A stretch of 64,000 nucleotides of DNA, taken from positions 62,001 through 126,000 of the forward strand of contig NZ_BMLX01000005.1 in NCBI RefSeq assembly GCF_014645535.1, given 5' to 3'. The stretch's first letter is position 1. Each line of letters begins with the position of its first letter. The DNA is from Silvimonas iriomotensis (lineage in GTDB: Bacteria > Pseudomonadota > Gammaproteobacteria > Burkholderiales > Chitinibacteraceae). Shown here piece by piece: positions 11,839-56,556 of this stretch. The position numbers were made by a program, and so were the translations under genes. The notes under the pieces are model-generated. The model ran no database searches. It saw only the letters and a program-made list of their open reading frames with translations, and was not told the DNA's origin.

Positions 11839-12720
11839 TCAGGCGGGTACGTTGCCCGCGCCAATCTGATCCAGCGCCGCCAGCATCTGCGGCGGCAGTT
11901 GTACCGCCAGGCTGGCGATATTCTGCTGCAAATGCGCCACGGATGACGTCCCCGGAATCAGCAGAATATTGGGCGAGCGCTGCAACAACCAGGCCAACGC
12001 CACCTGCATGGGCGTGGCGCCACATTGCTCGGCAGCGTGGCTGAGCGCATCGGCCTGCAAAGGCGAGAACCCGCCCAGCGGGAAGAACGGCACGTACGCA
12101 ATGCCCTCGGCCGCCAGGCTGTCGATCAGCGCGTCATCACGCCGTTGCGCCAGGTTGTACATGTTCTGCACGCACACAATCTCGGCGATCGCGCGCCCTT
12201 GCGCCACTTGCTCCGGCAACACGTTGCTAAGGCCGATATGCCGGATCAGCCCGCGCGCCTGCAGTTCGGCCAGTGCCGTCAGTTGCGGCTCCACGTCGCC
12301 CGCAGCGGGGCCGTGAACGCTGAACATCAAGCGCAAATTGACCACGTCGAGCACATCCAGCCCCAGATTGCGCAGGTTGTCGTGCACGGCGGCTTCCAGC
12401 TCGGCCGGGGAGTTGGCCACATTCCACGCCCCATCTGCCCCGCGGCTGGCACCCACCTTGGTGACAATGGTCAGGTTATCGGCATACGGGTGCAACGCTT
12501 CGCGGATGATCTGGTTGGTGACGTGCGGGCCGTAGAAGTTGCTGGTATCAATATGGTTAATGCCGCTTTCGATTGCGGTGCGCAAAACGGCCAGTGCGGC
12601 GGCGCGATCCTTCGGCGGGCCGAAAACCTGCGGGCCAGCCAGTTGCATGGCGCCATAGCCCATACGGTTCACGGTACGGCTGCCCAGGGTAAATGTGCCG
12701 GCGCGGCTTGCATCAGTCAT
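11839..12720 (-). CDS. Aldo/keto reductase family oxidoreductase
   Basis: A 293-aa TIM-barrel NAD(P)H-dependent reductase of the YdbC-like branch. Catalytic residues visible are the Asp and Tyr in HIDTSNFYGPHVTN and the Lys in IVTKVGASRG. The strand that normally carries the catalytic His reads DVVNLRLMFSVHG, so the canonical His is displaced or missing. The C-terminal cofactor loop LLIPGTSSVAHLQQN is intact. It is divergent from a TetR gene, with a candidate operator between them (12771-12801), so it is likely the TetR target. Confidence 0.9.
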   Translation of the reverse strand: MTDASRAGTFTLGSRTVNRMGYGAMQLAGPQVFGPPKDRAAALAVLRTAIESGINHIDTSNFYGPHVTNQIIREALHPYADNLTIVTKVGASRGADGAWNVANSPAELEAAVHDNLRNLGLDVLDVVNLRLMFSVHGPAAGDVEPQLTALAELQARGLIRHIGLSNVLPEQVAQGRAIAEIVCVQNMYNLAQRRDDALIDSLAAEGIAYVPFFPLGGFSPLQADALSHAAEQCGATPMQVALAWLLQRSPNILLIPGTSSVAHLQQNIASLAVQLPPQMLAALDQIGAGNVPA

Positions 12721-12770
12721 TGAAACTACTCCTTCTGAACGGTGGTATCCGGTAAAGCGGGATACATCTA

Positions 12771-12801
12771 GAATACGAATAATCCTTCAGAATTTGTATT
12801 C
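12771..12801. promoter_or_regulatory. Candidate TetR operator
   Basis: GAATACGAAT (12771-12780) and ATTTGTATTC (12792-12801) are inverted arms with 9/10 match and an 11-bp spacer, in the gap between the divergent reductase and tetR genes. The right arm ends 4 bp before the tetR ATG. A TetR dimer operator controlling both genes is the simplest reading. Confidence 0.55.
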
Positions 12802-12805
12802 GCAT

Positions 12806-13444
12806 ATGCGCACAGACTCCCTCCCCACACTCGACGCCCGCAAACGGCCACGCCAGGCCCGATCGCAAGCCACCGTCGATACCATTTTCGAAGCCACTAT
12901 TCAGGTTTTGCTGGCAGAAGGGCTGCCACGCCTGACTACCATCCGCGTGGCCGAGCGCGCTGGTGTCTCGGTCGGCACGCTATACCAGTACTACCCGCAA
13001 AAGCAGGCGCTGCTGTTTGCCGTGCTGCAACGGCACCTGGAACAGGTCGCCCGCACGGTAGATGAAGCCGCGTTGTCCATGCACGGCGCCACGCTGGCGC
13101 AGATGGTCAGAACCATCGTCACCGCGTTTGTGAAAATCAAAACGCAGAACCTGGCCGAATCCCGCGCGCTGTACGCCGTGGCCACTGAACTTGACTCACG
13201 CGAGTACGTGCAGAGCATCAAACAACGCAACCGCGCCGCGCTGGAAGCCATGCTCAGGACGGCCTCCGACGCGCGGTTTGCTGATATCAGCACCGTCACC
13301 TTCATGTTTGCCGGCGTGATGATCGGCCCGATCCAGGTTTTGCTGGAAGGCGAACCCACCCCGGAAATGCTCAAGCTCTTGCCGGAGCAACTGGTGTCGG
13401 TGTGTCTGGGGTATCTGGAACGCGAAGCCCTGCGCCCGGCCTGA
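12806..13444 (+). CDS. TetR/AcrR family transcriptional regulator
   Basis: 212 aa. The N-terminal HTH is clear: KRPRQARSQATVDTIFEAT, then TTIRVAERAGVSVGTLYQYY, then PQKQALLFAVLQRHLE. The C-terminal ligand domain is generic (FVKIKTQNLAESRALYAVA). The ATG at 12806 has no good Shine-Dalgarno and sits next to the candidate operator; longer in-frame versions would overlap the reductase gene. It probably represses the divergent aldo/keto reductase and itself. Confidence 0.92.
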   Translation: MRTDSLPTLDARKRPRQARSQATVDTIFEATIQVLLAEGLPRLTTIRVAERAGVSVGTLYQYYPQKQALLFAVLQRHLEQVARTVDEAALSMHGATLAQMVRTIVTAFVKIKTQNLAESRALYAVATELDSREYVQSIKQRNRAALEAMLRTASDARFADISTVTFMFAGVMIGPIQVLLEGEPTPEMLKLLPEQLVSVCLGYLEREALRPA

Positions 13445-13701
13445 ACGCCGGTTTCAGCCAGGCTGGCCCGGACGCGCCAGCGCAGGAAAGACGTCACCAG
13501 CCCCGCCACCAGCAACCCCAAGGCGCCGCCCGGATAATGATGCTGTTGTGTCTGGTCTTGTGTGCGCTGATCAGCACGGACTGGTGTTGCACGATTTGCA
13601 GCAGGCATGAGTCACCCTCGGCGGGAAGCCAAAACGGGTTGATCCGTCACAAACCAGGTTATGACCAAAGTAATGACCCGACAAGGTGTTTTACCGCCTG
13701 G
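13445..13701. other. Intergenic sequence between tetR and the transposon
   Basis: No convincing gene. Short open frames here are low-complexity or antisense to tetR. The last bases before the transposon form the left copy of the target-site duplication. Confidence 0.6.
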
Positions 13702-13706
13702 GTACA
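13702..13706. repeat. Left target-site duplication GTACA
   Basis: GTACA immediately precedes the TGT terminus at 13707. The identical GTACA follows the ACA terminus at 17252-17256. Five base pairs is the duplication length made by Tn7-family transposases. Confidence 0.8.
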
Positions 13707-13721
13707 TGTTTTCTTCCGAAT

Positions 13722-13840
13722 AAATGAGATTTCCCTTTCAGCACTATTGAGGCTTCCTGGGGAGTCTTTCTAAAAATTGTTGAGACCGATCGAAGCCAAA
13801 AAATGGGATTAGTTAGGTTTTAAGTCTAAAAGTGGGATCG
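13722..13840 (+). repeat. Left-end transposase-site repeats of the Tn7-like element
   Basis: Five related motifs in the same orientation have TGRGA/TGAGG cores at 13725, 13748, 13781, 13804 and 13833 (spacings 23, 33, 23 and 29 bp). The best copies are AGCCAAAAAATGGGATT and AGTCTAAAAGTGGGATC. They match the reverse complement of the right-end motifs. Confidence 0.68.
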
Positions 13841-14046
13841 GAATTTTCCATCTATTCATTCAAGAACGTCCGACAATTGATTGGCTCACTCGGTAGCGCC
13901 GCCCTAACCCCAAAGACATGGCCAGACAGGTCAGTTTCCGGTGCGCCTTGCTCTGCGTCTGCAAGCGTTTGAGACTGACCAGACGATGCGACCGTAGAAT
14001 TCCCTGGTACCGCTACATGAAGCGGGAACCTCTCCAAGGCATTCCA

Positions 14047-14847
14047 ATGAGCGATCAAAGCGATAGTACTCTTAAAAACATAGGAATCTTTTCCGTTCTC
14101 CAAGCTGCAACGGAAGAAAAATTCTTCTTTCTGGCCGCTACTTTTATTCTGTTCCTGGACAACTGCTTTATCGGGTCTGGGCAACCAGGAATATTCGACC
14201 TGGCCCGTAGCAAGGCCTTGATGGACCAGTCCAACCTCGCTACTAAAGGCATTCTTTACTTTGTTGGATTTTCCTTTCTCACAGGCATCCTTTTTCCGCG
14301 GATCACGAGTGATCTATTCACGATGCTCGACTGGATCTTCGACAATCCATTTTCTTTGGTAAGCAACTGGTTCAACGTAAATGAGCAGGTACCGGAACGT
14401 CCGCGTGGGCATGTTTCTGGGTATAAATTGCTCCAACATGCCCATAAAACTCGGGAAAAGTATTACCTGGACCTTCTGGACCAATATGAAGACGACTATG
14501 CCAAGCTGATTCGTAAATGGAGGGAGGACAAGGTCAATAGCTTTTACTGCCTGACCATGTTTGCGATAAATCTTTATCTGGGATGGGGGGCAAGTAACTC
14601 GCTGGCGTACCAGCTCGCCATCCATGCGGGAAACATTCATCTGATCTGGCTAGGGTTGCTCCTTCTGATCTGGCTGTTCCTTTCAAACCTTTTGAGGGAT
14701 CCTCCAACACTGACGGCTTACTGCCCGAGCTTGTATGAAGAGATCAAGAAGGCAGAAATAGAAGAGAAGAAGCGCCGTGACGAATTGCTGGAGAATCGTC
14801 CATCCAACTTCAGGCCACTCCGAAGAGACCGGACTGATCTGGACTAA
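14047..14847 (+). CDS. Polytopic membrane protein, unknown function (transposon cargo)
   Basis: 266 aa from the ATG at 14047. About four hydrophobic segments: near residues 20-42 (FFFLAATFILFLDNCFIG), 65-85 (GILYFVGFSFLTGILFP), 165-185 (CLTMFAINLYLGWG) and 200-222 (LIWLGLLLLIWLFLSNLL). A charged cytosolic stretch (HAHKTREKYYLDLLDQYEDD) lies between the second and third, and a Lys/Glu-rich tail (EEIKKAEIEEKKRRDELLE) follows. I do not recognise the family. Codon use is less GC-rich than the neighbours, consistent with cargo of the mobile element. A defence role is possible by context but unsupported. Confidence 0.7.
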   Translation: MSDQSDSTLKNIGIFSVLQAATEEKFFFLAATFILFLDNCFIGSGQPGIFDLARSKALMDQSNLATKGILYFVGFSFLTGILFPRITSDLFTMLDWIFDNPFSLVSNWFNVNEQVPERPRGHVSGYKLLQHAHKTREKYYLDLLDQYEDDYAKLIRKWREDKVNSFYCLTMFAINLYLGWGASNSLAYQLAIHAGNIHLIWLGLLLLIWLFLSNLLRDPPTLTAYCPSLYEEIKKAEIEEKKRRDELLENRPSNFRPLRRDRTDLD

Positions 14848-14993
14848 TCATACAAACACACGACGAGTTATTGGTATGAGAACAATAGCCGTAAGTTGGG
14901 TTGGAAAAACCCAGGACAACCGAATCCATTTTAATAAGTGAAAGTACAAGCCAAACCCACTGTTCACGATGCTCTCTTCAGTGAGAGTGTTGA

Positions 14994-15040
14994 TTTGCAC
15001 TGAATCCTGACCCACCTTTTGCATCGAATTCTGACCCACC
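14994..15040. repeat. IS21-type terminal direct repeats
   Basis: Two tandem 23-nt units at 14994-15016 and 15018-15040, period 24 bp. Both end TGACCCACC and begin TTTGCA. This is the multiple-repeat end structure seen in IS21-family elements. Confidence 0.7.
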
Positions 15041-15053
15041 TGATGGACCCTTT

Positions 15054-15170
15054 TCAGGGGGTGGGTTGGGGCTGCCTGGGGGCTTTTTTCTCCTTTTCCG
15101 GTGGAAACGTGCTGTTCTTGAAACGGTAGCTGTCGTTCCCGGTTTCAACAATGTGGCAGTGGTGGGTCAG
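15054..15170 (-). pseudogene. IstB C-terminal fragment
   Basis: The minus strand encodes LTHHCHIVETGNDSYRFKNS followed by a Lys-rich tail and stop at 15054. This is the conserved C-terminus of the IS21 helper ATPase IstB. Sequence before LTHHC is unrelated to IstB, so the gene is cut there. Confidence 0.75.
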
Positions 15171-15861
15171 CGAATTGCCGGAAGGCTTCCGGCAACTCCA
15201 GAAGATCCTGCTCAAACGGCCCGGCGGCGATCGGGAAATGGTCGACATCCTCGCCCTGGTGCTGATGCATGATGAAGCCGCCGTGTTGACGGCGGTCGAG
15301 CTGGCCCTGGAAGCCGGAATTCCCTCCAAGCAGACCATCCTCAACTTGCGGATCGGCGTACAGTGTGGCAAGGGTGCAGGGTACCTTCTCTCGGATGGTT
15401 AACCACTCGCTCCGGCTGTAACGATGTGCCGCATTCTGGCGCAGGTTGCGAGCATTGATAAAAGCAGGTGACGCGACAATGTCCGGATGACGATGCAAGG
15501 AAAAGCGAAGGCCGAGAAGGTCTAGCTGGTCAGCCACCGAATTGTATTTTTGCCGGGCTTCATCACTCAGGCCCCCGTCAACCGATTTGCACTCTATGTA
15601 CAAACGCGGCCGCCAGACATCCCGCCAAATGACCTCGATGTCCGGGATGTAGGTGTGCGCGGCGTTGTCAAACCACATCACAAATTCCCTGCATTGCACA
15701 TTCAGACGGGCGACGTCGGGATTGCCTTCAAGAGCAAGCAACATATCCCGCTCGGATTTCGACTCATATACCAGCCTTTGTCCGGTTTTAAATGAGTGAT
15801 GTTCGCCGATGTACTTCATGGAATTGGTATTACTGATAATACGAAGACCGGCCTTCAGCAT
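15145..15861 (-). CDS. TnsA-like transposon endonuclease with replaced C-terminus
   Basis: The start at 15861 follows GGGGAGGTG and overlaps the preceding small ORF. The 238-aa frame has the TnsA N-terminal nuclease domain: VYESKSERDMLLAL (E33/E37), AHTYIPDIEVIW (D74) and LYIECKSVDGG (E90-x-K92), the restriction-enzyme-like triad that cuts the 5' donor strands in Tn7. From about residue 170 (after TLYADPQ) the frame runs antisense through the IS21 remnant, so the C-terminal winged-helix/TnsC-contact region is lost. It is the first transposase-type gene inward from the right end, as in Tn7. It is probably non-functional. Confidence 0.72.
   Translation of the reverse strand: MLKAGLRIISNTNSMKYIGEHHSFKTGQRLVYESKSERDMLLALEGNPDVARLNVQCREFVMWFDNAAHTYIPDIEVIWRDVWRPRLYIECKSVDGGLSDEARQKYNSVADQLDLLGLRFSLHRHPDIVASPAFINARNLRQNAAHRYSRSEWLTIREKVPCTLATLYADPQVEDGLLGGNSGFQGQLDRRQHGGFIMHQHQGEDVDHFPIAAGPFEQDLLELPEAFRQFADPPLPHC
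15175..15349 (+). pseudogene. IstA transposase fragment
   Basis: The plus strand encodes LPEGFRQLQKILLKRPGGDR, then MVDILALVLMHDEAAVLTAV, then ELALEAGIPSKQTILNL, a stretch typical of the C-terminal part of IS21-family IstA. The similarity stops at ILNL, and there is no start or stop belonging to the gene. It lies opposite in direction to the adjoining IstB fragment. Confidence 0.65.
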
Positions 15862-16040
15862 GGGACACCTCCCCATACCACAGGTCGCCAATTGGATTGC
15901 AGCTGGCAAATTTTGGGCGTAACAATGCCCTGAACAAAAGCACTCATGTCTTTGTCTCCATGGGTAATTCGTGGCTCGCGAGGAAGCCACAAACGATGGA
16001 GCGCAACCGTACGTCCGATATCAAACGTTAATGTTGCCAT
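15855..16040 (-). CDS. Possible small ORF upstream of tnsA-like gene
   Basis: A 61-aa frame from the ATG at 16040 (MATLTFDIGRTVALHRLWLP, ending VVWGGVPC). Its stop overlaps the tnsA-like ATG by 7 bp (ATGCTGA), an arrangement typical of coupled genes. No Shine-Dalgarno is seen and the family is not recognised. It could instead be untranslated leader. Confidence 0.35.
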   Translation of the reverse strand: MATLTFDIGRTVALHRLWLPREPRITHGDKDMSAFVQGIVTPKICQLQSNWRPVVWGGVPC

Positions 16041-16247
16041 TGGATTAGTACGGCGACAGAATGAGACTTGATCCCGTCCAAAAGATCGTTCTCCCTCGGC
16101 CAAAGCAATACTTGGCTGAGGGGGTCCCACCCTGACCGTTGCGCTTTACTACTAGGTCACCTGGTTTTATCCCGTTAAATCATTCTCCTGTTTCAATTCA
16201 ATACACATTGATGATAGTGACAGCCCCGAAGGGCTATCGCTGATGAA

Positions 16248-16457
16248 TCAATTGCCATTCATTGCCTTTGATTGTTTTCCGTGTTGTCGGGTTTGCTGTT
16301 CAATCCACTCAAGAACGTCCTCGCGCCGCCAGCGCCGAATGCGGCCGACACGCAGGAACGGCGGGCCTTCGTGCTGGCCAATAATTTTATCGAGCGTTTT
16401 TACGCTGATGCAGAGCAGCTGCGCCACATCTTTGGCTTCCATGAACATGTCGGTCAA
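16248..16457 (-). CDS. AlpA/excisionase-like helix-turn-helix protein
   Basis: 69 aa with a MerR/AlpA-type winged HTH: EAKDVAQLLCISVKTLDKII, then GPPFLRVGRIRRWRREDVLEW. Such proteins act as excisionases or as small activators on mobile elements. The start is TTG at 16457, with GGGAGG 8 bp upstream; the in-frame ATG at 16448 would be 17 bp away. It is transcribed inward from the right end, ahead of the tnsA-like gene. Repeats at 16637-16763 upstream are possible binding sites. Confidence 0.78.
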   Translation of the reverse strand: MTDMFMEAKDVAQLLCISVKTLDKIIGQHEGPPFLRVGRIRRWRREDVLEWIEQQTRQHGKQSKAMNGN

Positions 16458-17180
16458 CTCTTAGTCCTCCCGAAAGAAACGGAAATGGACGTCCTGTGGC
16501 GCAAATTAAACGCGCCGGGGATGCCCGCTGTCAAACAATGCTTTTATTTTAAAATCATTAAATCAATCAATTTTACCGATTTAATTTAAGGAAAATTGCC
16601 CTTACACTATTTTCTTGCAAGTCATAGAATCATTTTCTAAATAGCAATATGCCATTATGTCGCAGCATCTCTCAAAAATCCTTACAAGTAACAAACAAAT
16701 TCGAACCATAATAGCGGCAATTTTCTGCGTTACATTTTTTCCTAAATAGCAAATTGCCATTTACGGCTAAAACCCCCATAAACATTAACTCTTTTAGTCC
16801 GAATTACAAATGTTTTTCTTTTGTTACTGGTTGCAGGTAAGTTGCAATGTATTCAATTAAATACATAAAATCAGTGCAAGAATTTATTTCGCACACGAGA
16901 AAATTTGACAGATACTGAAAGCATCAGTCACTGCTACCAGCTGATCTTGCATCACTTTGCGAAACAAACTGGCATTCGACAGGCGGTCATTTTTCAAGGA
17001 CGAGCGAGATAACAGGTCAAAGCCTAGGCAAACCCCTTCCAATATGGGATGACCTGGACTAGCTCAGGGTGTTTTGCTCCCTTTTTCCCTCGCTTCTCCT
17101 CTCGCTTCCAGAGCGTCGATTAAAACCCTGGATCACGCGCCAGTCGGTGCCGTTGCTCCAAGCGCCCCAGGCCCGATTTC
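16458..17180. other. AT-rich gene-poor stretch of the transposon right arm
   Basis: About 720 bp without a supportable gene. It has a strongly AT-rich core (16540-16920) holding the two 21-22-bp repeats. The GC-richer 17040-17180 segment shows nothing recognisable. Confidence 0.6.
16637..16763 (+). repeat. Two near-identical 21-22-bp direct repeats
   Basis: CTAAATAGCAATATGCCATT (16637-16656) recurs as CTAAATAGCAAATTGCCATT (16742-16761) 105 bp later. They lie upstream of the AlpA-like gene and are likely operator or accessory-protein sites. Confidence 0.5.
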
Positions 17181-17251
17181 CAGTCTCAACTTTAGGCTTC
17201 GATAAATCTCATCTTTTGGCTTAAAAATCCCAACATCTCCGGAAATAAACA
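17180..17251 (-). repeat. Right-end transposase-site repeats of the Tn7-like element
   Basis: Three contiguous motifs with TCYCA cores at 17184, 17207 and 17228 (spacing 23 and 21 bp): TCTCAACTTTAGGCTT, TCTCATCTTTTGGCTT and the diverged TCCCAACATCTCC. They run up to the terminal ACA at 17251. They are inverted relative to the left-end motifs. Confidence 0.68.
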
Positions 17252-17256
17252 GTACA
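17252..17256. repeat. Right target-site duplication GTACA
   Basis: Identical to 13702-13706 and directly abutting the ACA terminus. Removing 13707-17256 restores a continuous host intergenic sequence upstream of the glyoxalase-fold gene. Confidence 0.8.
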
Positions 17257-17285
17257 TTCAGCGCAAAAGATGACCTGGCTCCACA

Positions 17286-17309
17286 CTACTGACAGAATGG
17301 TGTCAGTAG
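17286..17309. promoter_or_regulatory. 9-bp inverted repeat upstream of the VOC-WYL pair
   Basis: CTACTGACA (17286-17294) and TGTCAGTAG (17301-17309) are perfect inverted arms with a 6-bp spacer, 65-88 bp before the VOC gene start. It is a good candidate operator for the downstream WYL regulator. Confidence 0.5.
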
Positions 17310-17373
17310 CCCCCGCGTACATTGCACCTCACGCCACCCCGGCGTCATACCAATGCACTCAGGAGACTCGATC

Positions 17374-17757
17374 ATGGACACCATTCAAAATCCGTTCTGC
17401 TGGACTGAAATTGCTGTTGCCGACATGGAGCGTGCCGTGCGTTTTTACGAAGCCGTGTTCAACACCCATCTCAAGCGTGAACGCTTTGGCGACTCTGACC
17501 AGGCCATTTTCCCGCATGCCGAAGACCAGCCGGGCGGTGCGCTGTTCAAGGCGGCGCACATGCAGCCGGGCGCCAGCGGCACACGCGCTTATCTGAACGT
17601 GGGCACGGAAAAGCTCGACACCGTGCTGGGCCGGGTGGAACGCGCGGGCGGCAAGATGGATTTCCCGGTGGTGTTTCTGGGCGATTGCATTGGTTACATT
17701 GCCGGCATGGTTGATTCAGAAGGCAACCGCGTTGGCCTTTTCTCTCACGCGGGTTAA
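17374..17757 (+). CDS. VOC (glyoxalase/bleomycin-resistance fold) family protein
   Basis: 127 aa, one VOC module: FCWTEIAVADMERAVRFYEA at the start of the first beta-alpha-beta unit, GTRAYLNVGTEKLDTVLGRV in the second, and GYIAGMVDSEGNRVGLFSH with the terminal Asp-Ser/Glu. AGGAGA lies 8 bp before the ATG. The substrate is unknown. It is followed 12 bp later by a WYL regulator, probably co-transcribed, so the enzyme is likely under its control. Confidence 0.92.
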   Translation: MDTIQNPFCWTEIAVADMERAVRFYEAVFNTHLKRERFGDSDQAIFPHAEDQPGGALFKAAHMQPGASGTRAYLNVGTEKLDTVLGRVERAGGKMDFPVVFLGDCIGYIAGMVDSEGNRVGLFSHAG

Positions 17758-17769
17758 CCAGGGCACCCC

Positions 17770-18465
17770 ATGCGCCGCGCAGACAGACTCTTCCAGATTG
17801 TGCAGTTCCTGCGCGGCCGGCGGCTGACCACCGCACGCTGGCTGGCAGAGAAACTGGAAGTCTCGGAGCGCACAATCTATCGCGATATCCAGGATTTGAT
17901 GGCCTCTGGCGTGCCTATTGATGGCGAGGCCGGCATGGGCTACGTGCTGCATAAAACGTACGACATGCCGCCCTTGATGTTTGATCAGGAAGAAATCGAA
18001 GCCGTCACCATCGGCCTGCGGATGGTGCGCTCCTGGGGCGGCAACCGGCTGGAACGCGCCGCCATCCGCGCCCAGGCCAAGATCAACGGCGCCCTGCCAC
18101 TGGATTTGCGCCGCCGCTTTGGCCGGGTGTCTTTGTATTCGCCGGGCTGGACCAAACCGTTTTCGGGTGAGTTCTTTGATCTGATCCACGCCGCGATCGG
18201 CACCAACCAGGTGCTGCAGATGGATTACTGCCGGCTCGATAGCGAGGAAAGCGAACAGCGCCATATCTGGCCACTGGGCCTGTTCTTCTGGGGTGCCAAG
18301 TGGACGCTGGTGGCCTGGTGTGAAAAGCGGGTGGATTTCCGCACATTCCGGCTGGACCGGATTACCGCCTTGCAGCCGGCGGACCGGGCGTTCATCCCGC
18401 ACCGGGAACGCGATCTGGATGCGTATTTCAAGTCTGCGGGCGTGCCGGCGGATGTGGATGAGTGA
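17770..18465 (+). CDS. WYL-domain transcriptional regulator (YafY family)
   Basis: 231 aa. The N-terminal DeoR/HTH_11 domain reads MRRADRLFQIVQFLRGRRLT, then EKLEVSERTIYRDIQDLMAS. The WYL domain follows (VLQMDYCRLDSEESEQRHIW, then KWTLVAWCEKRVDFRTFRLD). The stop TGA at 18463-18465 overlaps the first heptamer of the adjacent repeat array. It likely binds 17286-17309 and senses a small effector. Confidence 0.93.
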   Translation: MRRADRLFQIVQFLRGRRLTTARWLAEKLEVSERTIYRDIQDLMASGVPIDGEAGMGYVLHKTYDMPPLMFDQEEIEAVTIGLRMVRSWGGNRLERAAIRAQAKINGALPLDLRRRFGRVSLYSPGWTKPFSGEFFDLIHAAIGTNQVLQMDYCRLDSEESEQRHIWPLGLFFWGAKWTLVAWCEKRVDFRTFRLDRITALQPADRAFIPHRERDLDAYFKSAGVPADVDE

Positions 18466-18814
18466 GGTGTGAGGTGTGAGGTGTGCAGAGTGCAAATGCC
18501 GGTCTGCCAGATGCAACTACTCTTTTACACACACCACCACTTCGTCATTCCTGACCTCGGCGGCCCCCTTGGCCGGAATCCAGGCGCAAATAGGTGTGCC
18601 GAAGGCACGGAAAATGGTTTGCCAGCTAAAGCCCACCTGCGGTGGGCGTGCTGGATTCCTGCCTTCGCAGGAATGACGAACCAGGGGTATGCACGCCTCC
18701 CCCTCCTCACTCCTCACTCCTCACTCCTCACTCCTCACTCCTCACTCCTCACTCCTCACTCCTCACTCCTCACTCCTCACTCCTCACACCTCACACCTCA
18801 CTCCTCACTCCTCA
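18464..18814. repeat. Heptamer-repeat element, copy 1
   Basis: Layout: 3 units of GAGGTGT (18464-18484); a conserved 58-bp flank; a palindrome-bounded 71-bp core (18582-18652); a conserved right flank; and 16 units of CTCCTCA/CACCTCA (18703-18814). Its flanks match copy 2 (21555-21934) in the same orientation, but the core is inverted. The GA-rich strand carries TGA in every reading frame. The complementary strand is open and encodes only LLTPHSS-type repeats, which I do not regard as protein. Confidence 0.85.
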
Positions 18815-42048: not shown

Positions 42049-42261
42049 GCAATTCACTCCTGTCTCTGATCGAGAGATCACTGTTGTTCTGCTGCTGTTG
42101 CAATCGGGATAGTCAGGCTAGCCGCTGGGACAGGTTTGGCACCCCTGTCCGGCATGGCTAGTCAATACGAAGCTGAAGGGGTATGCAATACCCATATTGA
42201 TTTATGTCGCTTGTGGCGTGTGGGCACGCACCGCATATCGGCGCGATCAATGGTCAGGTGG

Positions 42262-49030: not shown

Positions 49031-50431
49031 GTGGCACACCGGATCACGCGATGGGAACCCAACAACCCCGCCTTCTGGGAAAGCGAAGGCGAACGCGTTG
49101 CCAAGCGCAATTTGTGGATATCCATCCCCTGTCTGTTGCTGGCGTTTTCCACCTGGGTGGTGTGGAGCGTGGTGGTCCTGAAAATGCCGCAAGTGGGCTT
49201 TCACTACACCAAAAACCAGCTGTTCATGCTGACTGCCCTGCCCAATCTGTCTGGCGCCACGCTACGGATTTTCTACAGCTTTATGCCCTCGCTCATTGGC
49301 GGGCGCAAGTGGACCACCCTCTCCACCGCCAGTTTGCTGATCCCCTCGATCTGGCTGGGTTTTGCGCTGCAAGATCCGAACACGCCGTTCTCGGTCATGT
49401 TGATCATTGCGCTGTTGTGCGGCTTTGGCGGCGGCAATTTCTCCAGTTCCATGGCCAACATTGCGTGGTTTTTCCCCAAAGAGCGCAAAGGCTGGGCCAA
49501 TGGCATGAATGCGGGCCTGGGTAATCTGGGGGTGTCGGTCATGCAGTTTCTGGTGCCCATTGTCATCACCATGGGCATCTTTGGCGCGCTGGGCGGCCAG
49601 CCGCAAACGTATACCCAGAACGGCGCCGAGCATCAGATGTGGCTGCAGAACGCCGGTTTCATCTGGGTACCGCTGGTGATTGCCGCCACGCTGGCGGCCT
49701 GGTTCGGCATGAATGATCTGGCCGTGGCAGAAGCCACGGTGGCTGAGCAAGCGGTCATTTTCAAACGGCTGGATAACTGGCTGATGTGCTGGTTGTATCT
49801 GGGTACGTTCGGCAGCTTTATCGGCTTTTCCGCTGGCTTTGCCTTGCTGACCAAAACCCAGTTCCCCGAGATCAACGTCACCGACTACGCCTTTATCGGC
49901 CCCTTGATCGGCGCCATTATCCGCCCGGTGGGCGGCACGGTGTCCGACAAACTGGGCGGCGGCGCGCGCGTGACCATGTGGGTGTTTGTGCTGATGGCCG
50001 CCGCCATTTTTGGCGTGCTGTCTTTCCTGCCGCACACCGGGGCCGATGGCAACCCGGTCGGTGGCAGTTTCTGGGGTTTTTTCCTGATGTTCCAGGCGCT
50101 GTTCCTGCTCTCTGGCATTGGCAATGGTTCGACCTACAAGATGATCCCGGTGATCTTTCCGCGCCTGGCCAAAAAAGCGGCCGAAGGCAAAGACGAAGCC
50201 GCGCAGAAAAAAGCCTTGCTGGATGGTGCAGTCGAAGCGGCCGCTGCCGGCGGGTTTATCAGCGCGATCGGCGCGTATGGCGGGTATTTCATCCCGCAAA
50301 GTTTCGGGGTGTCGATGGATGCCACCGGCTCGGCCGAAGCAGCCCTTTACGCCTTCATCGTGTTCTACATCACCTGCGTGTTGCTGTGCTGGTGGCGCTA
50401 CGCCCGCAAGGGCGCAGCCATGCCGTGCTGA
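49031..50431 (+). CDS. narK: Nitrate/nitrite transporter NarK, second copy
   Basis: 466 aa MFS carrier. Start is GTG at 49031 with AGGGGG 5 bp upstream; the N-terminus RITRWEPNNPAFW then aligns with NarK1. Signatures are GFGGGNFSSSMANIAWFFP and SGIGNGSTYKMIP. It is very similar to NarK1 over its length, so one is a paralogue or the clusters were acquired separately. It is the first gene of the second nitrate cluster. Confidence 0.95.
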   Translation: MAHRITRWEPNNPAFWESEGERVAKRNLWISIPCLLLAFSTWVVWSVVVLKMPQVGFHYTKNQLFMLTALPNLSGATLRIFYSFMPSLIGGRKWTTLSTASLLIPSIWLGFALQDPNTPFSVMLIIALLCGFGGGNFSSSMANIAWFFPKERKGWANGMNAGLGNLGVSVMQFLVPIVITMGIFGALGGQPQTYTQNGAEHQMWLQNAGFIWVPLVIAATLAAWFGMNDLAVAEATVAEQAVIFKRLDNWLMCWLYLGTFGSFIGFSAGFALLTKTQFPEINVTDYAFIGPLIGAIIRPVGGTVSDKLGGGARVTMWVFVLMAAAIFGVLSFLPHTGADGNPVGGSFWGFFLMFQALFLLSGIGNGSTYKMIPVIFPRLAKKAAEGKDEAAQKKALLDGAVEAAAAGGFISAIGAYGGYFIPQSFGVSMDATGSAEAALYAFIVFYITCVLLCWWRYARKGAAMPC

Positions 50432-50442
50432 ACAGGAGCTGC

Positions 50443-50538
50443 GAAAAGCGAAACGTGAAATGTGAACGGTGAAAAGCAAACCCGTGCATGCGCGGTTTTC
50501 CGGTTCATTGTTCACCCTTCACACCGGCTTTTCACACT
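50443..50538. repeat. Degenerate heptamer-repeat element between narK2 and narG2
   Basis: Left array of five 7-mers: GAAAAGC, GAAACGT, GAAATGT, GAACGGT, GAAAAGC (50443-50477). Right array in inverted sense: TTCATTG, TTCACCC, TTCACAC, CGGCTTT, TCACACT (50504-50538). Same two-sided GA-rich/CT-rich plan as the elements at 18.5 and 21.6 kb, but diverged and shorter. It starts 12 bp after the narK2 stop. Confidence 0.5.
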
Positions 50539-50567
50539 CCCCACCCACTGTTCTACCGGGGCAAGTC

Positions 50568-53500
50568 ATGAGTCATTTTCTTGATCGCCTGACCTATTTC
50601 AGCCAGAAGCGCGAGCCGTTTTCCAATGGCCATGGCGAGTTGCGTGCCGAAGACCGGCAGTGGGAAGAGGCCTATCGCCTGCGCTGGCAGCACGACAAGA
50701 TCGTGCGCTCTACCCATGGCGTGAACTGTACGGGCTCCTGTTCCTGGAAAATCTATGTCAAGGGCGGGATTGTGACGTGGGAAACCCAGCAGACCGACTA
50801 CCCGCGCACGCGCCCGGATATGCCCAATCACGAGCCGCGCGGATGCTCACGCGGGGCGTCGTACAGCTGGTATCTGTACAGCGCCAACCGCATCAAATAC
50901 CCCATGATCCGTGGCCGCTTGCTGCGGTTGTGGCGCGAGGCGCGCAAAACACTGGCGCCGGTAGAGGCCTGGAAATCCATCGTGGAAGACCCGGCCAAAA
51001 CGCAGCAATACAAGGAAATCCGCGGGCGGGGCGGCTTTGTGCGGGCAACGTGGGAAGAAGCCAACGAGATCGTCGCCGCCGCCAATATCCACACCATCAA
51101 GACCTGGGGGCCAGACCGGGTTGTCGGGTTCTCGCCCATTCCGGCCATGAGCATGGTCAGCTATGCCGCTGGCGGCCGTTACCTGAGCCTGCTGGGCGGC
51201 ACGCTGATGTCGTTTTACGACTGGTACTGCGACCTGCCGCCGTCCAGCCCGCAAACCTGGGGCGAGCAAACCGATGTGCCGGAATCGGCCGACTGGTACA
51301 ACTCTGCCTTCATCATTGCCTGGGGTTCCAACGTGCCGCAAACGCGCACGCCGGACGCCCATTTCTTTGTCGAGGCCCGCTACAACGGCACCAAGATTGT
51401 GGCGGTGACGCCGGATTACTCTGAAGTCGCCAAGCTGTCTGATATCTGGCTGCACCCCAAACAAGGCACGGATGCCGCGCTGGGCATGGCCATGGGTCAT
51501 GTCATCCTGACCGAGTTTTTCGTGCAGCGGACCGTGCCCTACTTTGATGACTACTGCCGCCGCCTGACCGATCTGCCCATGCTGGTGCAGCTAAAAAAAC
51601 AGGGCGAACACTGGGTGGCAGACCGCTTCTTGCGGGCTTCTGATTTTGCTGATCATCTGGGCCAGGCCAATAACCCGGACTGGAAAACAGTCGGTTTTGA
51701 CGAAACCAGCCAGCGTTTTGTCGCGCCGCAAGGCTCGATTGGTTATCGCTGGGGTCAGCAGGTAGAAGGCGATCTGGGCAAATGGAACCTGGAGCAAAAA
51801 GACGGCGCCGGGGCCGAGGTAAAACTGGCGCTGAGTTTGCAGGCGCACAGGGATGACGTCCTTGGCGTGGCCTTCCCCTACTTTGGCGCACAGGAACACG
51901 AATACTTTACCCACAACGATCAGGGTGGCGACGTCCTGGTGCGGCATGTGCCGGTCAAACGCGTGGGCGAGACCCTGGTCACCACGGTGTTTGACCTGAT
52001 GTGCGCCAATTACGGGGTGGATCGGGGTCTGGGTGGCCAGGCCGCCGGCAGCTACGACGATGACATTGCCTACACCCCGAAGTGGCAGGAAAAGATCACC
52101 GGTGTCCCGCCGGAAAAAGTGATCGAAGTCGCCCGCCAGTTTGCGCAGAGCGCCGAGAAAACCGAAGGCCGCAGCATGGTGATCATCGGCGCGGCCATGA
52201 ATCACTGGTATCACCAGGACATGAACTACCGCGCCGCCATCAACATGCTGATGCTGTGCGGTTGTATTGGCAAAAGCGGCGGCGGCTGGGCGCATTACGT
52301 GGGCCAGGAAAAACTGCGCCCGCAAACCGGCTGGACCGCGCTGGCGTTTGCGCTGGACTGGGCCCGCCCGCCACGCCATATGAACAGCACGTCGTTCTTT
52401 TACGCCCATACCGATCAATGGCGTTACGAGACCCTGACCACGGCCGAAGTGCTCTCGCCGCTGGCCGACACCGGCCGTTATGGCAAGACGCTGATCGACT
52501 GCAACGTGCGCGCCGAACGCATGGGCTGGCTGCCTTCATCGCCGCAGATCAACACCAACCCGCTCAGCGTGGCCGCCAAAGCCGCCGCGGCCGGGGTCGA
52601 GCCCAAAGACTGGCTGGTGCAACAACTGCAATCCGGCCAGACCCGCATGGCGTGCGAAGACCCGGATGCGCCGGAGAATTTCCCGCGCAACCTGTTTGTC
52701 TGGCGCTCCAACCTGTTTGGTTCATCGGGCAAGGGGCACGAGTATTTCCTCAAGCATTTTGTCGGCGCGCAGCATGGCATCCAGCAAGGTGACATGGGCG
52801 AAACCGGCGGCGAAAAACCGGAAGAAGTGGTCTGGCACGACAAGGCGCCAGAAGGAAAACTGGACCTGATCACCACGCTGGATTTTCGCATGAGCACCAC
52901 CTGTCTTTATTCAGACATCGTGCTGCCCACCGCCACCTGGTATGAGAAAAACGACCTCAACACCAGCGATATGCATCCGTTTATCCACCCGCTGTCAGCC
53001 GCCGTTGACCCGATCTGGCAAAGCCGTAGCGACTGGGAAATCTACAAGGGTTTCGCGAAGAAATTCTCAGAACTCGTCCCCGGCCACCTGGGTCTGGAAA
53101 AAGACCTGGTGCTGGTCCCGCTGCAACACGACACCCCGGGCGAACTGGCGCAACCCTTTGACGTGCTGGACTGGAAAAAGGGCGAGTGCGAACTGGTCCC
53201 CGGCAAAACCGCACCCAATATGGTGGTGGTCGAACGCGACTACCCCAACGTCTACAAGCGCTTCACCGCCCTGGGCCCTTTGATGAAAAAGCTGGGCAAT
53301 GGCGGCAAGGGCATCAACTGGAACACCGAGCATGAGGTTGATGGCCTGGGCAAGCTGAACCGGATCGTCACCGAAGAAGGCATCAGCAAGGGCTTGCCGC
53401 GCATCGAAACCGACATTGATGCCGCCGAGACCATCATGCAACTGGCGCCGGAAACCAATGGCGAAGTGGCAGTAAAAGCCTGGCAAGCGCTGGAGAAATT

Positions 53501-54320
53501 CACCGGCCGCCAGCACAGCCACCTGGCCGACGTGCGCGAAGACGAGAAAATCCGCTATCGGGATATCCAGGCGCAACCGCGCAAGATCATCAGTTCGCCC
53601 ACCTGGTCCGGTATCGAGAGTGAACATGTGAGCTACACCGCCGGTTACACCAACGTGCATGAGCTGATCCCCTGGCGCACGTTGTCGGGCCGGCAGCAGT
53701 TTTACCAGGACCACCGCTGGATGATCGACTTTGGCGAAGGCCTTGTGAGCTATCGCCCGCCGATCGACACCCGCACCGTCGCCCCGCTCAAGGGCAAGCA
53801 CGCCAATGGTTTTCCGGAGATCACCCTCAACTTCATCACGCCGCACCAGAAATGGGGCATCCACTCCACCTACACCGACAACCTGATCATGCTCACGCTC
53901 AGCCGCGGCGGGCCGATTGTGTGGCTGTCTGAAGTGGATGCAAAAAAGGTGGGCATTGAAGACAACGACTGGATCGAACTCTTCAACGTCAACGGCGCCA
54001 TCGCCGCCCGCGCCGTGGTCAGCCAGCGGGTGAAAGAAGGCATGTGCATGATGTACCACGCCCAGGAAAAGATCGTGAACGTGCCGGTGTCTGAAGTCAC
54101 CAGACACCGCGGCGGCATTCATAACTCCGTCACCCGCGCCGTGCTCAAACCCACGCACATGATTGGCGGCTATGCACAGTTGTCTTACGGCTTTAACTAC
54201 TACGGCACCGTCGGCTCCAACCGCGACGAATTCGTGATCGTGCGCAAAATGAACCGCGTGAACTGGGCCGATGCCGATGAAGACCACGTGAAAGGGCTTG
54301 ATCCGGACAAGGCGACGTAA
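50568..54320 (+). CDS. narG: Respiratory nitrate reductase alpha subunit, second copy
   Basis: 1250 aa. Start at MSHFLDRLTYFSQKREPF, matching NarG1. [4Fe-4S] motif THGVNCTGSCSW with the last Cys in RGCSRGASYSW, and Mo-ligand region YDWYCDLPPSSPQTWGEQTD. It is strongly similar to NarG1 along the whole length, with insertions around residues 400-470 and 740-760. It is separated from narH2 by about 680 bp of repetitive DNA, unlike the 4-bp overlap in operon 1. Confidence 0.97.
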   Translation: MSHFLDRLTYFSQKREPFSNGHGELRAEDRQWEEAYRLRWQHDKIVRSTHGVNCTGSCSWKIYVKGGIVTWETQQTDYPRTRPDMPNHEPRGCSRGASYSWYLYSANRIKYPMIRGRLLRLWREARKTLAPVEAWKSIVEDPAKTQQYKEIRGRGGFVRATWEEANEIVAAANIHTIKTWGPDRVVGFSPIPAMSMVSYAAGGRYLSLLGGTLMSFYDWYCDLPPSSPQTWGEQTDVPESADWYNSAFIIAWGSNVPQTRTPDAHFFVEARYNGTKIVAVTPDYSEVAKLSDIWLHPKQGTDAALGMAMGHVILTEFFVQRTVPYFDDYCRRLTDLPMLVQLKKQGEHWVADRFLRASDFADHLGQANNPDWKTVGFDETSQRFVAPQGSIGYRWGQQVEGDLGKWNLEQKDGAGAEVKLALSLQAHRDDVLGVAFPYFGAQEHEYFTHNDQGGDVLVRHVPVKRVGETLVTTVFDLMCANYGVDRGLGGQAAGSYDDDIAYTPKWQEKITGVPPEKVIEVARQFAQSAEKTEGRSMVIIGAAMNHWYHQDMNYRAAINMLMLCGCIGKSGGGWAHYVGQEKLRPQTGWTALAFALDWARPPRHMNSTSFFYAHTDQWRYETLTTAEVLSPLADTGRYGKTLIDCNVRAERMGWLPSSPQINTNPLSVAAKAAAAGVEPKDWLVQQLQSGQTRMACEDPDAPENFPRNLFVWRSNLFGSSGKGHEYFLKHFVGAQHGIQQGDMGETGGEKPEEVVWHDKAPEGKLDLITTLDFRMSTTCLYSDIVLPTATWYEKNDLNTSDMHPFIHPLSAAVDPIWQSRSDWEIYKGFAKKFSELVPGHLGLEKDLVLVPLQHDTPGELAQPFDVLDWKKGECELVPGKTAPNMVVVERDYPNVYKRFTALGPLMKKLGNGGKGINWNTEHEVDGLGKLNRIVTEEGISKGLPRIETDIDAAETIMQLAPETNGEVAVKAWQALEKFTGRQHSHLADVREDEKIRYRDIQAQPRKIISSPTWSGIESEHVSYTAGYTNVHELIPWRTLSGRQQFYQDHRWMIDFGEGLVSYRPPIDTRTVAPLKGKHANGFPEITLNFITPHQKWGIHSTYTDNLIMLTLSRGGPIVWLSEVDAKKVGIEDNDWIELFNVNGAIAARAVVSQRVKEGMCMMYHAQEKIVNVPVSEVTRHRGGIHNSVTRAVLKPTHMIGGYAQLSYGFNYYGTVGSNRDEFVIVRKMNRVNWADADEDHVKGLDPDKAT

Positions 54321-54354
54321 GACGGGTCTGGGTGGTGCCTTTGACGGCTTTGCT

Positions 54355-54501
54355 GGATCCCCCCGCCAAGGTCGGGAATGACGAAGTGAAGGGGTGAACC
54401 GGTCAATCTTGCGAATCGTGGTTTGTGGGATTGGGGGTGTTTTGAGGTGCCTTTACCAAGCCTGATATCGCCGCTGGATTCCTGCCTGCGCAGGAATGAC
54501 G
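54355..54501 (+). repeat. Two REP-like palindromes after narG2
   Basis: 54355-54383 and 54476-54501 both have the form GGAT...GGGAATGACG or GGATTCCTG...CAGGAATGACG. The second is nearly identical to the palindromes bounding the cores of the heptamer elements at 18653-18678 and 21780-21805, so the same repeat family is dispersed in this genome. Confidence 0.7.
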
Positions 54502-54578
54502 AGGCGGTGGCATGCAGGCGCAGTAGATATCGCCTTCGCCTTTGCTTTTCGGGATCGCGGTTGCAGTTGATTTTCGGG

Positions 54579-54614
<36 letters not shown>

Positions 54615-54639
54615 GTTGGGGCTGCTTTTGACGTCGGGC

Positions 54640-54830
54640 CCCTTTGACAGCGCCGAGCATCGCAGCAAGGCGCGGGGTTTCGGCGCAAGGGTGTTTGAGG
54701 GCTTTAGCCCGAGTTCCCTGGAGCCAGCCGCGGCTTGCGAGAAGCGCAGGGAACTCGCGCAGCGAGCGCAGTCGCAGGGGTCGCCTTTTCTTTGGTTACT
54801 TTCTTTTGGCGAAGCAAAAGAAAGTAACGT
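54640..54830. repeat. Dispersed intergenic repeat with long hairpin
   Basis: The segment ends in a perfect 14-bp stem, GTTACTTTCTTTTG (54795-54808) and CAAAAGAAAGTAAC (54815-54828), loop GCGAAG. It resembles a non-coding repeat I recall as common in beta- and gammaproteobacterial intergenic DNA. The hairpin between narG2 and narH2 could attenuate transcription or protect mRNA ends. Confidence 0.6.
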
Positions 54831-54996
54831 GCTCCGGCCACCGCCGGTATCAAAACACCGCGCCGCAAGGCGCTAACAACGCATTGCAACGGTGGATTAT
54901 CGCTATCACGCCGAGATCCCCCCTGCAGCGCGCATTGCAAAGGCCAGCACCAGTGCAACCAGCGCCGCACTCAAGCGCTACGGAGAACACACGAAA

Positions 54997-56556
54997 ATGA
55001 AAGTCCGCGCCCAAATCGCCATGGTGTTGAACCTGGACAAATGCATCGGCTGCCATACCTGTTCGGTCACCTGTAAAAACGTGTGGACCAGCCGGCTGGG
55101 CGTGGAATACGCCTGGTTCAACAATGTCGAGACCAAGCCCGGTGTCGGTTACCCCAAAGACTGGGAAAACCAGGAACACTGGAACGGCGGCTGGACGCGC
55201 AAGGACAACGGCAAACTCAAGCTCAAGCAAGGCAGCCGGCTGCAGATTCTGCTCAATCTGTTTGGCAACCCCAACCTGCCAGAGATCGACGACTACTACG
55301 AGCCGTTCACGTTCGATTACGAATACCTGCAAACCGCGCCAGAGATGAAAACCCAGCCGGTGGCGCGGCCGATTTCCATCCTGACCGGCAAGCGCATGGA
55401 AAAGATCGAATGGGGCCCGAACTGGGAGGAAATCCTGGGCGGCGAGTTTGCCAAACGCAGCCAGGACTACAACTTTGAGTCCGTGCAAAAAGAGATCTAC
55501 GGCGAGTTTGAAAACACCTTCATGATGTACCTGCCGCGCCTGTGCGAGCACTGCCTGAACCCGGCGTGCGTGGCGTCCTGTCCGTCCGGTTCCATCTACA
55601 AGCGCGAAGAAGACGGCATTGTGCTGATCGATCAGGACAAATGCCGTGGCTGGCGCATGTGCGTGTCCGGCTGCCCGTACAAGAAGATCTATTACAACTG
55701 GTCTTCCGGCAAGGCCGAGAAATGCATCTTCTGCTATCCGCGGATCGAGGCCGGCCAGCCCACCGTGTGTTCAGAAACCTGTGTGGGCCGCATCCGCTAT
55801 CTGGGTGTGTTGCTGTATGACGCAGACCGTATTGAAGAAGCCGCCAGCGCCGAAAACCCGCAGTCCTTGTACGAGGAACAACTGGGGATTTTCCTCGACC
55901 CGCACTCCGAGGCAGTGCGGGAACAGGCGCGCAAGGACGGTGTGCCGGAAAACTGGCTGGACGCCGCGCAGCACTCGCCCGTGTACAAGATGGCGGTGGA
56001 ATGGAAAATCGCCTTCCCGCTGCACCCGGAATACCGCACCTTGCCCATGGTCTGGTACGTGCCGCCGCTCTCGCCCATCCAGGCCCGCGCCAATGCCGGC
56101 GAAGTGGGCGTGAACGGGCATATTCCGGATGTAAACAGCCTGCGCATTCCGGTGCGTTATCTGGCCAACCTGCTCACCGCTGGCGCTGAGGCGCCCGTGG
56201 TGTCGGCACTGGAACGCATGCTGGCCATGCGCGCGTTCTTCCGCCAGCGCCAGCTGGAAGGCACGGATGACCTGCCGTTGCTGGATCAGGTCAACATGAG
56301 CCTCAACCAGGTGGAGGACATGCACCGTTATCTGGCCATTGCCAATTACGAAGACCGGTTTGTCATCCCCAGCACGCATCGCGAATACGCAGAAAACGCC
56401 TACCAGATGCGCGGCGACTGCGGGTTCTCGTTTGGCAATGGTTGTTCTGATGGCACGACAGAAACCAGTTTGTTTGGCGGCAAGATGGGCACCAAGAAAG
56501 TCTTCCCGCTCAAGACCATTGCCGGTAACTCGCCGGAGAACACCATTGACCACTGA
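54997..56556 (+). CDS. narH: Respiratory nitrate reductase beta subunit, second copy
   Basis: 519 aa. Cys motifs are CIGCHTCSVTCKNVW, CEHCLNPACVASCPSG, CRGWRMCVSGCPYKK (Trp variant, [3Fe-4S]) and CIFCYPRIEAGQPTVCSETC. The start MKVRAQIAMVLNLDKC mirrors copy 1. A GGAG lies 12 bp upstream, rather far. A transcript from narG2 must cross the repeats at 54321-54990, or a local promoter must exist. Confidence 0.97.
   Translation: MKVRAQIAMVLNLDKCIGCHTCSVTCKNVWTSRLGVEYAWFNNVETKPGVGYPKDWENQEHWNGGWTRKDNGKLKLKQGSRLQILLNLFGNPNLPEIDDYYEPFTFDYEYLQTAPEMKTQPVARPISILTGKRMEKIEWGPNWEEILGGEFAKRSQDYNFESVQKEIYGEFENTFMMYLPRLCEHCLNPACVASCPSGSIYKREEDGIVLIDQDKCRGWRMCVSGCPYKKIYYNWSSGKAEKCIFCYPRIEAGQPTVCSETCVGRIRYLGVLLYDADRIEEAASAENPQSLYEEQLGIFLDPHSEAVREQARKDGVPENWLDAAQHSPVYKMAVEWKIAFPLHPEYRTLPMVWYVPPLSPIQARANAGEVGVNGHIPDVNSLRIPVRYLANLLTAGAEAPVVSALERMLAMRAFFRQRQLEGTDDLPLLDQVNMSLNQVEDMHRYLAIANYEDRFVIPSTHREYAENAYQMRGDCGFSFGNGCSDGTTETSLFGGKMGTKKVFPLKTIAGNSPENTIDH

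Follow-up and report, generated by a model that had tools for sequence, protein, structure and literature searches.

A probable Tn7-like remnant with inverted end repeat arrays between tetR and VOC genes of Silvimonas iriomotensis

A 64,000-nt stretch of the Silvimonas iriomotensis genome (contig NZ_BMLX01000005.1, positions 62,001 to 126,000; hereafter the window, in whose numbering positions are given) carries, between a tetR and a VOC gene, an interval of low GC (guanine plus cytosine) content that begins with TGT and ends with ACA. The question raised by this locus is whether the interval is a Tn7-like transposon and, if so, in what state it persists. An initial annotation had described it as a decayed Tn7-like transposon with a 5-bp target duplication, and this description remained the best reading, supported by repeat arrays at the two ends and by the homology of an internal gene to tnsA. 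With a probability of about 0.92, the interval is a Tn7-like derivative bounded at 13707 and 17251, a non-autonomous remnant of a known kind.

Boundaries and end repeat arrays

The element spanned positions 13707–17251 (3,545 bp), with TGT as its first and ACA as its last bases. The left boundary read GTACA (13702–13706) followed by TGTTTTCTTCCG from 13707, and the right boundary, read leftward from 17251, was TGTTTATTTCCG, with GTACA outside at 17252–17256; the 5-bp duplication flanking both ends was perfect, and the ends initially annotated were exact to the base. The lower GC content noted at the same time was also confirmed (0.481 versus 0.603 for the whole window); in 500-bp steps it dropped close to both boundaries and went back up to 0.58 over fragments of insertion sequences (IS). 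The features of the two ends were as follows.

13702..13706, no strand: target duplication, left copy GTACA (sequence, both copies checked)
13707..13842, plus strand: left end, TGT terminus and four inward repeats with the core TG(A/G)GA, candidate TnsB sites (repeat search, motif scan, shuffles)
17179..17251, minus strand: right end, ACA terminus and three inward repeats, candidate TnsB sites (repeat search, motif scan, shuffles)
17252..17256, no strand: target duplication, right copy GTACA (sequence, both copies checked)

Taken alone, the terminal 12-mers and the 5-bp duplication were near chance level. Of 200 first-order Markov windows, 61 contained TGT/ACA pairs 0.5–15 kb apart whose 12-bp inverted ends differed at no more than 2 positions and were flanked by a perfect 5-bp repeat (0.395 pairs per window on average). 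The real window had two such pairs, the claimed element and 50100–55925. The statement of the initial annotation that nothing else explains the combination was therefore too strong. A 26-position terminal pattern, allowed up to 3 mismatches, matched the window twice, at the two ends of the element (0 and 2 mismatches; 0.02 matches expected), the pattern having been derived from these same ends. What carries the Tn7-like case is the multi-repeat end arrays together with the tnsA homology, not the termini and the duplication.

The end arrays, which the initial annotation had not listed, were the decisive evidence. A repeat of about 23 bp, pointing inward and containing AAGYCNAAARNTGRGA in four of its seven copies, was present at both ends, the copies scoring 21 to 36 against their motif. 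The left-end cores, at 13725, 13781, 13804 and 13833, were spread (spacing 56, 23 and 29), and the right-end cores, at 17232, 17211 and 17188, were tight (spacing 21 and 23). When two 138-bp subterminal segments were compared with the terminal 12 bp left out, 10 inverted pairs of 16-mers with at least 13 matches were counted, against a mean of 0.17 in 300 shuffles, none of which reached 10. The best single inverted pair matched at 14 of 16 positions, which was equalled in 3 of the 300 shuffles, and the direct-orientation control gave a best value of 11 and a count of 0. An independent repeat search also found inverted arms at the element ends, measuring 28 nt (75%) and 18 nt (89%).

Passages of PMC8649781 describe arrays of inverted repeats of about 20 bp as a general trait that Tn7-like transposons share, and passages of PMC11406308 give TGT/ACA ends with a 5-bp duplication as typical of these elements and describe the TnsB sites of Tn7 as overlapping at the right end and spaced at the left. 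The element thus resembled Tn7, as portrayed in these passages, in its termini, its duplication, its tight right array and its spaced left array. It differed in having four candidate sites at the left and three at the right, against three and four given for Tn7 in PMC8649781, in lacking tnsB, tnsC and a target-selector gene, and in not lying at glmS.

The tnsA fragment and the missing transposition genes

In Tn7, tnsA is transcribed inward from the right end. A truncated gene in the same arrangement, with an open N-terminal frame, was found near the right end of the element; its tnsA similarity ended at 15358, where fragments of IS21-family elements begin.

15358..15861, minus strand: tnsA-like gene, N-terminal part, ATG at 15861, ending at the IS21 fragments (NCBIfam, alignment with locus L049, tree, profile)
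15169..15348, plus strand: istA-like C-terminal fragment, on the opposite strand to istB (45–48% identity to a reading frame of the IS copies in L018, L025, L027 and L031)
15057..15170, minus strand: IS21-family istB C-terminal fragment (NCBIfam E 6.6e-4, below cut-off; IS copies)

The TnsA fragment, of which 163 residues were tested in the family searches, matched the NCBIfam entry TnsA_like_Actin with an E value of 5.2e-8 and 32.6 bits, the curated cut-off being 110. The TnsA of L049, an uncharacterised Tn7-like element of genome G311, aligned with 15861–15358 at E 3e-17. This protein passed the cut-off of the Pfam family Tn7_TnsA-like_N, and its gene adjoins those of a Mu-transpos_C protein (TnsB), a TniB-family ATPase (TnsC) and a TniQ protein; the tnsA homology was thus secured, because L049 TnsA aligns with the fragment and L049 has tnsA, tnsB, tnsC and tniQ in a row. 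A phmmer search of the PDB with the fragment alone gave spurious matches only. A profile of four TnsA rows, that of the window included, found PseTnsAB in the PDB (E 7.7e-15), a match that may be carried by the three complete rows. Residues E32/E36, D73, E89 and K91 were invariant in the four-row alignment and kept in the window protein, and the catalytic residues of TnsA are presumably among them.

In a tree of 28 TnsA rows, the window protein grouped with those of L049, L050, L106 and L052 (support 95/94), its exact place being unsure because of its long branch (2.14). The nearest matches, those of L049, L106 (G694) and L050 (G223), shared 33–36% identity over 119–152 amino acids (aa). L106 and L050 are likewise uncharacterised Tn7-like elements, and in L049 and L106 tnsA is preceded, as in the window, by a small open reading frame (ORF), of about 95–106 aa in those two loci. 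The three differ from the window element in having a complete tnsA-tnsB-tnsC-tniQ set, identified by Pfam in L049 and judged from gene size and position in L050 and L106. Thus the TnsA-like gene reading inward from the right end was borne out by the NCBIfam match, the L049 alignment and the tree.

Searches of the window with 13 query proteins (TnsB and TnsC of four Tn7-like sets and five TniQ) gave no similarity to TnsB, TnsC or TniQ at E 0.01; the element was therefore classed with remnants and non-autonomous derivatives and not with functional Tn7-like transposons. The two IS21 fragments, in opposite orientation, lie at the point where tnsA is cut off. The stretch 14988–15114 was matched at 99–100% identity by IS copies in five other places of the genome, one of them shorter. 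The fragment at 15169–15348 had no NCBIfam or Pfam match, and istA is the name we take to apply to it. Since the istA and istB frames share one strand in the IS copies of other genomes (L018, L025, L027 and L031) and lie on opposite strands here, the IS21 region has been rearranged. An IS21-associated deletion may have removed the rest of tnsA together with tnsB-tnsC-tniQ.

These features are consistent with the following course of events. A Tn7-like transposon most probably inserted between tetR and the VOC/WYL operon, duplicating GTACA. TnsB, bound to the arrays, would have linked the element ends to target positions 5 bp apart, while TnsA would have cut the donor, so that the arrival would have been by cut-and-paste. 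Later, IS21-family copies would have landed inside, and recombination between the copies or deletion beside them could have removed the genes now missing, leaving an element whose movement would presumably depend on a matching TnsB(AC) provided in trans.

Insertion site, relatives and competing explanations

By Pfam, the element is flanked by a TetR gene on one side and by a VOC/glyoxalase gene, followed by a WYL regulator gene, on the other, so the site is not downstream of glmS, as had been annotated; no tniQ is left from which the target selector used could be read. Comparison with related genomes, proposed initially as a check for an empty site, was made with three congeners (G001, G002 and G003). 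In G001 and G002, tetR and the VOC gene are adjacent without the island, the matched blocks lying 334 and 75 bp apart; the corresponding gap was about 3,850 bp here and would be about 300 bp without the element and one copy of the duplication. G003 matched on the VOC side only. The empty site was thus supported at the gene level only, because no congener aligns across the joining point.

Matches to the window TnsA were found in 10 of 300 genomes of the order and 2 of 369 of the class, the own genome included in both, and in 5 of 10 genomes of the genus of G311. Profile matches were obtained in 30 of 398 genomes of the phylum, again including the own one. One plasmid record, from Nostoc, matched (29% identity, E 2e-4), and neither a TnsA search of genome contigs nor a profile search of viral contigs gave a match. 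Twenty-seven tnsA-bearing loci from the genomes with a match were used for the tree, and the 700 bp preceding tnsA in them were scanned for TGRGAY. L137, a Tn7-like element of G166, had no outward copies and four inward ones, of which the outermost probably belongs to the flank, its best copy scoring 24.5 bits against the window motif; L054, L142 and L144 had two inward copies each together with 4, 1 and 1 outward, and the other loci had one or none. L137 shares with the window element the inward TGAGA-core repeats near tnsA, and differs in the sequence around the core and in its TnsA, which is distant and outside the clade of the window TnsA. Its flank is presumably a comM-like gene. A passage of PMC10293859 names comM as the target gene of Tn6022, with which the L137 element would then share its target. 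The ends of L049, L050 and L106 were delimited neither by repeats nor by within-genus comparison, and a motif scan of these loci gave no array.

Several results weigh against the interval being a Tn7-like derivative. No base-exact empty site was found in the three congeners, whose intergenic DNA has nothing that aligns with the sequence on either side of the joining point. No similarity in the window was seen for the small ORFs that precede tnsA in L049 and L106. The TnsA fragment alone had no Pfam match even at E 10, its PHROG matches to a head-closure family (9.3e-4) and an endonuclease (8.6e-4) were equally weak, and its single-sequence fold, with a predicted local distance difference test (pLDDT) score of 46.4, was too poor for a structure search and was not used. 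As for the ends, the right-end double repeat (at most 3 mismatches) was not found in 398 other genomes of the order, the window being the sole match among 399, and as an exact degenerate pattern it gave 0 matches in viral contigs. Degenerate terminal patterns, fitting the left end exactly and not the right, were searched in viral and genome contigs. The left-end patterns hit five viral-contig stretches, which read by eye as apparent chance, and 40 genome-contig stretches (one, L088, covering just 41 bases), of which 7 had one loose copy of the repeat motif (at most 3 mismatches) and none had more, again apparently by chance. In plasmids, blastn gave five weak matches to the right end (14–15% of the query, E 0.7) and none to the left, nothing convincing. 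A clear same-core array upstream of tnsA was seen at just 1 of the 27 loci, L137. For the recurrence of the end repeats in TnsB-containing elements, also proposed initially as a check, the results were a same-core array at that single locus and no full match in the 398 genomes, and they speak neither clearly for it nor clearly against it.

A patchwork island, made up of IS21 fragments, an orphan nuclease gene and a phage-like helix-turn-helix (HTH) gene with fortuitous terminal repeats, would account for the heterogeneous content and for a cargo gene without known relatives, and the ease with which simulated windows produced comparable termini and duplications is in its favour. Against it stand the excess of inverted subterminal pairs over all shuffles and the drop in GC close to the boundaries, interrupted by the rise over the IS fragments, and it was regarded as the least probable of the explanations considered. 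Hardly more probable is an element of the Tn5053/Tn402 or Tn552 type, with TGT/ACA-type ends and repeat arrays and with tnsA as accidental cargo. According to passages of PMC8649781, elements of these types also have subterminal repeat arrays. The transposition module of the Tn5053/Tn402 group, however, lacks tnsA, whereas a tnsA fragment is present here. It lies near the right end and reads inward, as would be expected of the gene that opens a transposition operon, and the genes nearest to it in sequence belong to tnsA-tnsB-tnsC-tniQ layouts.

Other Tn7-like genes are present in the same genome. A complete-looking set of tnsA, tnsB, tnsC and two tniQ genes, of a different lineage, was located on contig C3 (148539–154402; L163, 10540–16403), presumably near groEL, and a further partial TnsB-like stretch at 176146–176685 of that contig; an inverted-repeat search for the ends of the C3 element was without success. 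At the start of contig C4 (1–2353; L130), tnsA and a tnsB shortened at the contig edge lie in what we take to be a comM-like gene, and a tniQ gene lies at the opposite end of C4 (304646–305955; L166). An IS probably interrupts the C4 element, because similar IS-like terminal sequences occur at both contig ends.

Within the Tn7-like reading, the interval could be a non-autonomous mini-element still mobilised in trans and not a dead remnant. The perfect duplication, the well-kept ends, the open N-terminal frame of tnsA and the resident Tn7-like genes speak for this, yet no second copy of the element ends was found in the own genome, and the resident comM-type TnsA is just 28% identical to that of the window. 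The resident loci gave isolated motif matches of 13.9–16.2 bits and no array in the stretches scanned, against 21–36 for the copies of the element, which makes them unlikely helpers. Continued mobility was accordingly considered unlikely. Also unlikely is the proposal that the element stands for a Tn7-like lineage not described so far, which would have an end-repeat code of its own and an AlpA-like regulator that acts on the paired palindromes, and that it persists as a mini-element still movable by a TnsABC set elsewhere in the population.

As a Tn7-like remnant, the interval offers a clean example of decay, in which the ends and the duplication were kept and the operon was lost beside IS21 fragments. 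Surveys that set out from tnsB, such as that of 6,549 elements in PMC8649781, would probably miss it. What the element contributes is a further insertion site and a divergent tnsA lineage; no new principle emerges from it.

Cargo gene, HTH gene and palindromes

The remaining features of the element were a cargo ORF, a small regulator-like gene and two near-palindromes.

14047..14847, plus strand: cargo ORF, 266 aa with two strongly hydrophobic stretches, no known family
16248..16448, minus strand: small HTH protein, 66 aa, HTH_17 (excisionase/AlpA type; Pfam E 2.5e-9)
16640..16656, no strand: near-palindrome AATAGCAATATGCCATT, candidate operator 1 (repeat search, pattern scan)
16745..16761, no strand: near-palindrome AATAGCAAATTGCCATT, candidate operator 2 (repeat search, pattern scan)

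The cargo protein had no family in Pfam or PADLOC and only weak sub-threshold matches in NCBIfam and PHROGs. Plasmids, phages and viral contigs contained no match to it; it was matched in 2 of 399 genomes including its own, the other match (E 0.004) containing two stops. Its predicted fold (pLDDT 44.5) was too poor for a structure search.

The HTH_17 gene precedes tnsA on the same strand. The two palindromes, situated between the right end and the HTH gene, are near-identical, with the common pattern AATRGCAAWWTGCYATT, and lie 105 bp apart, or about ten helical turns; 11 of 100 shuffles matched the pattern loosely as often, the pattern having been built from these sites. The HTH gene and the paired palindromes probably represent a former transcription control. 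Co-option of transcriptional regulators by some CRISPR-associated transposons is described in passages of PMC11406308. The TniQ of L049 (8613–10889) has an internal HTH_17 domain, of the same Pfam family as the small HTH protein. A 21-nt direct repeat (86%) at 13851–13871, just inside the left end, and at 16300–16320, inside the HTH gene, may be what is left of a second HTH gene.

No Rfam match was obtained at E 0.5 within 12500–18600, and the sole tRNA of the window, at 42259, is distant from the insertion site. Outside the element, a palindrome, CTACTGACAGAATGGTGTCAGTAG, was observed at 17286–17309 upstream of the VOC gene; it is identical in G001 and G002 and similar in G003, and is likely a conserved operator. 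It sits 34 bp off the right end of the transposon and was undamaged by the insertion.

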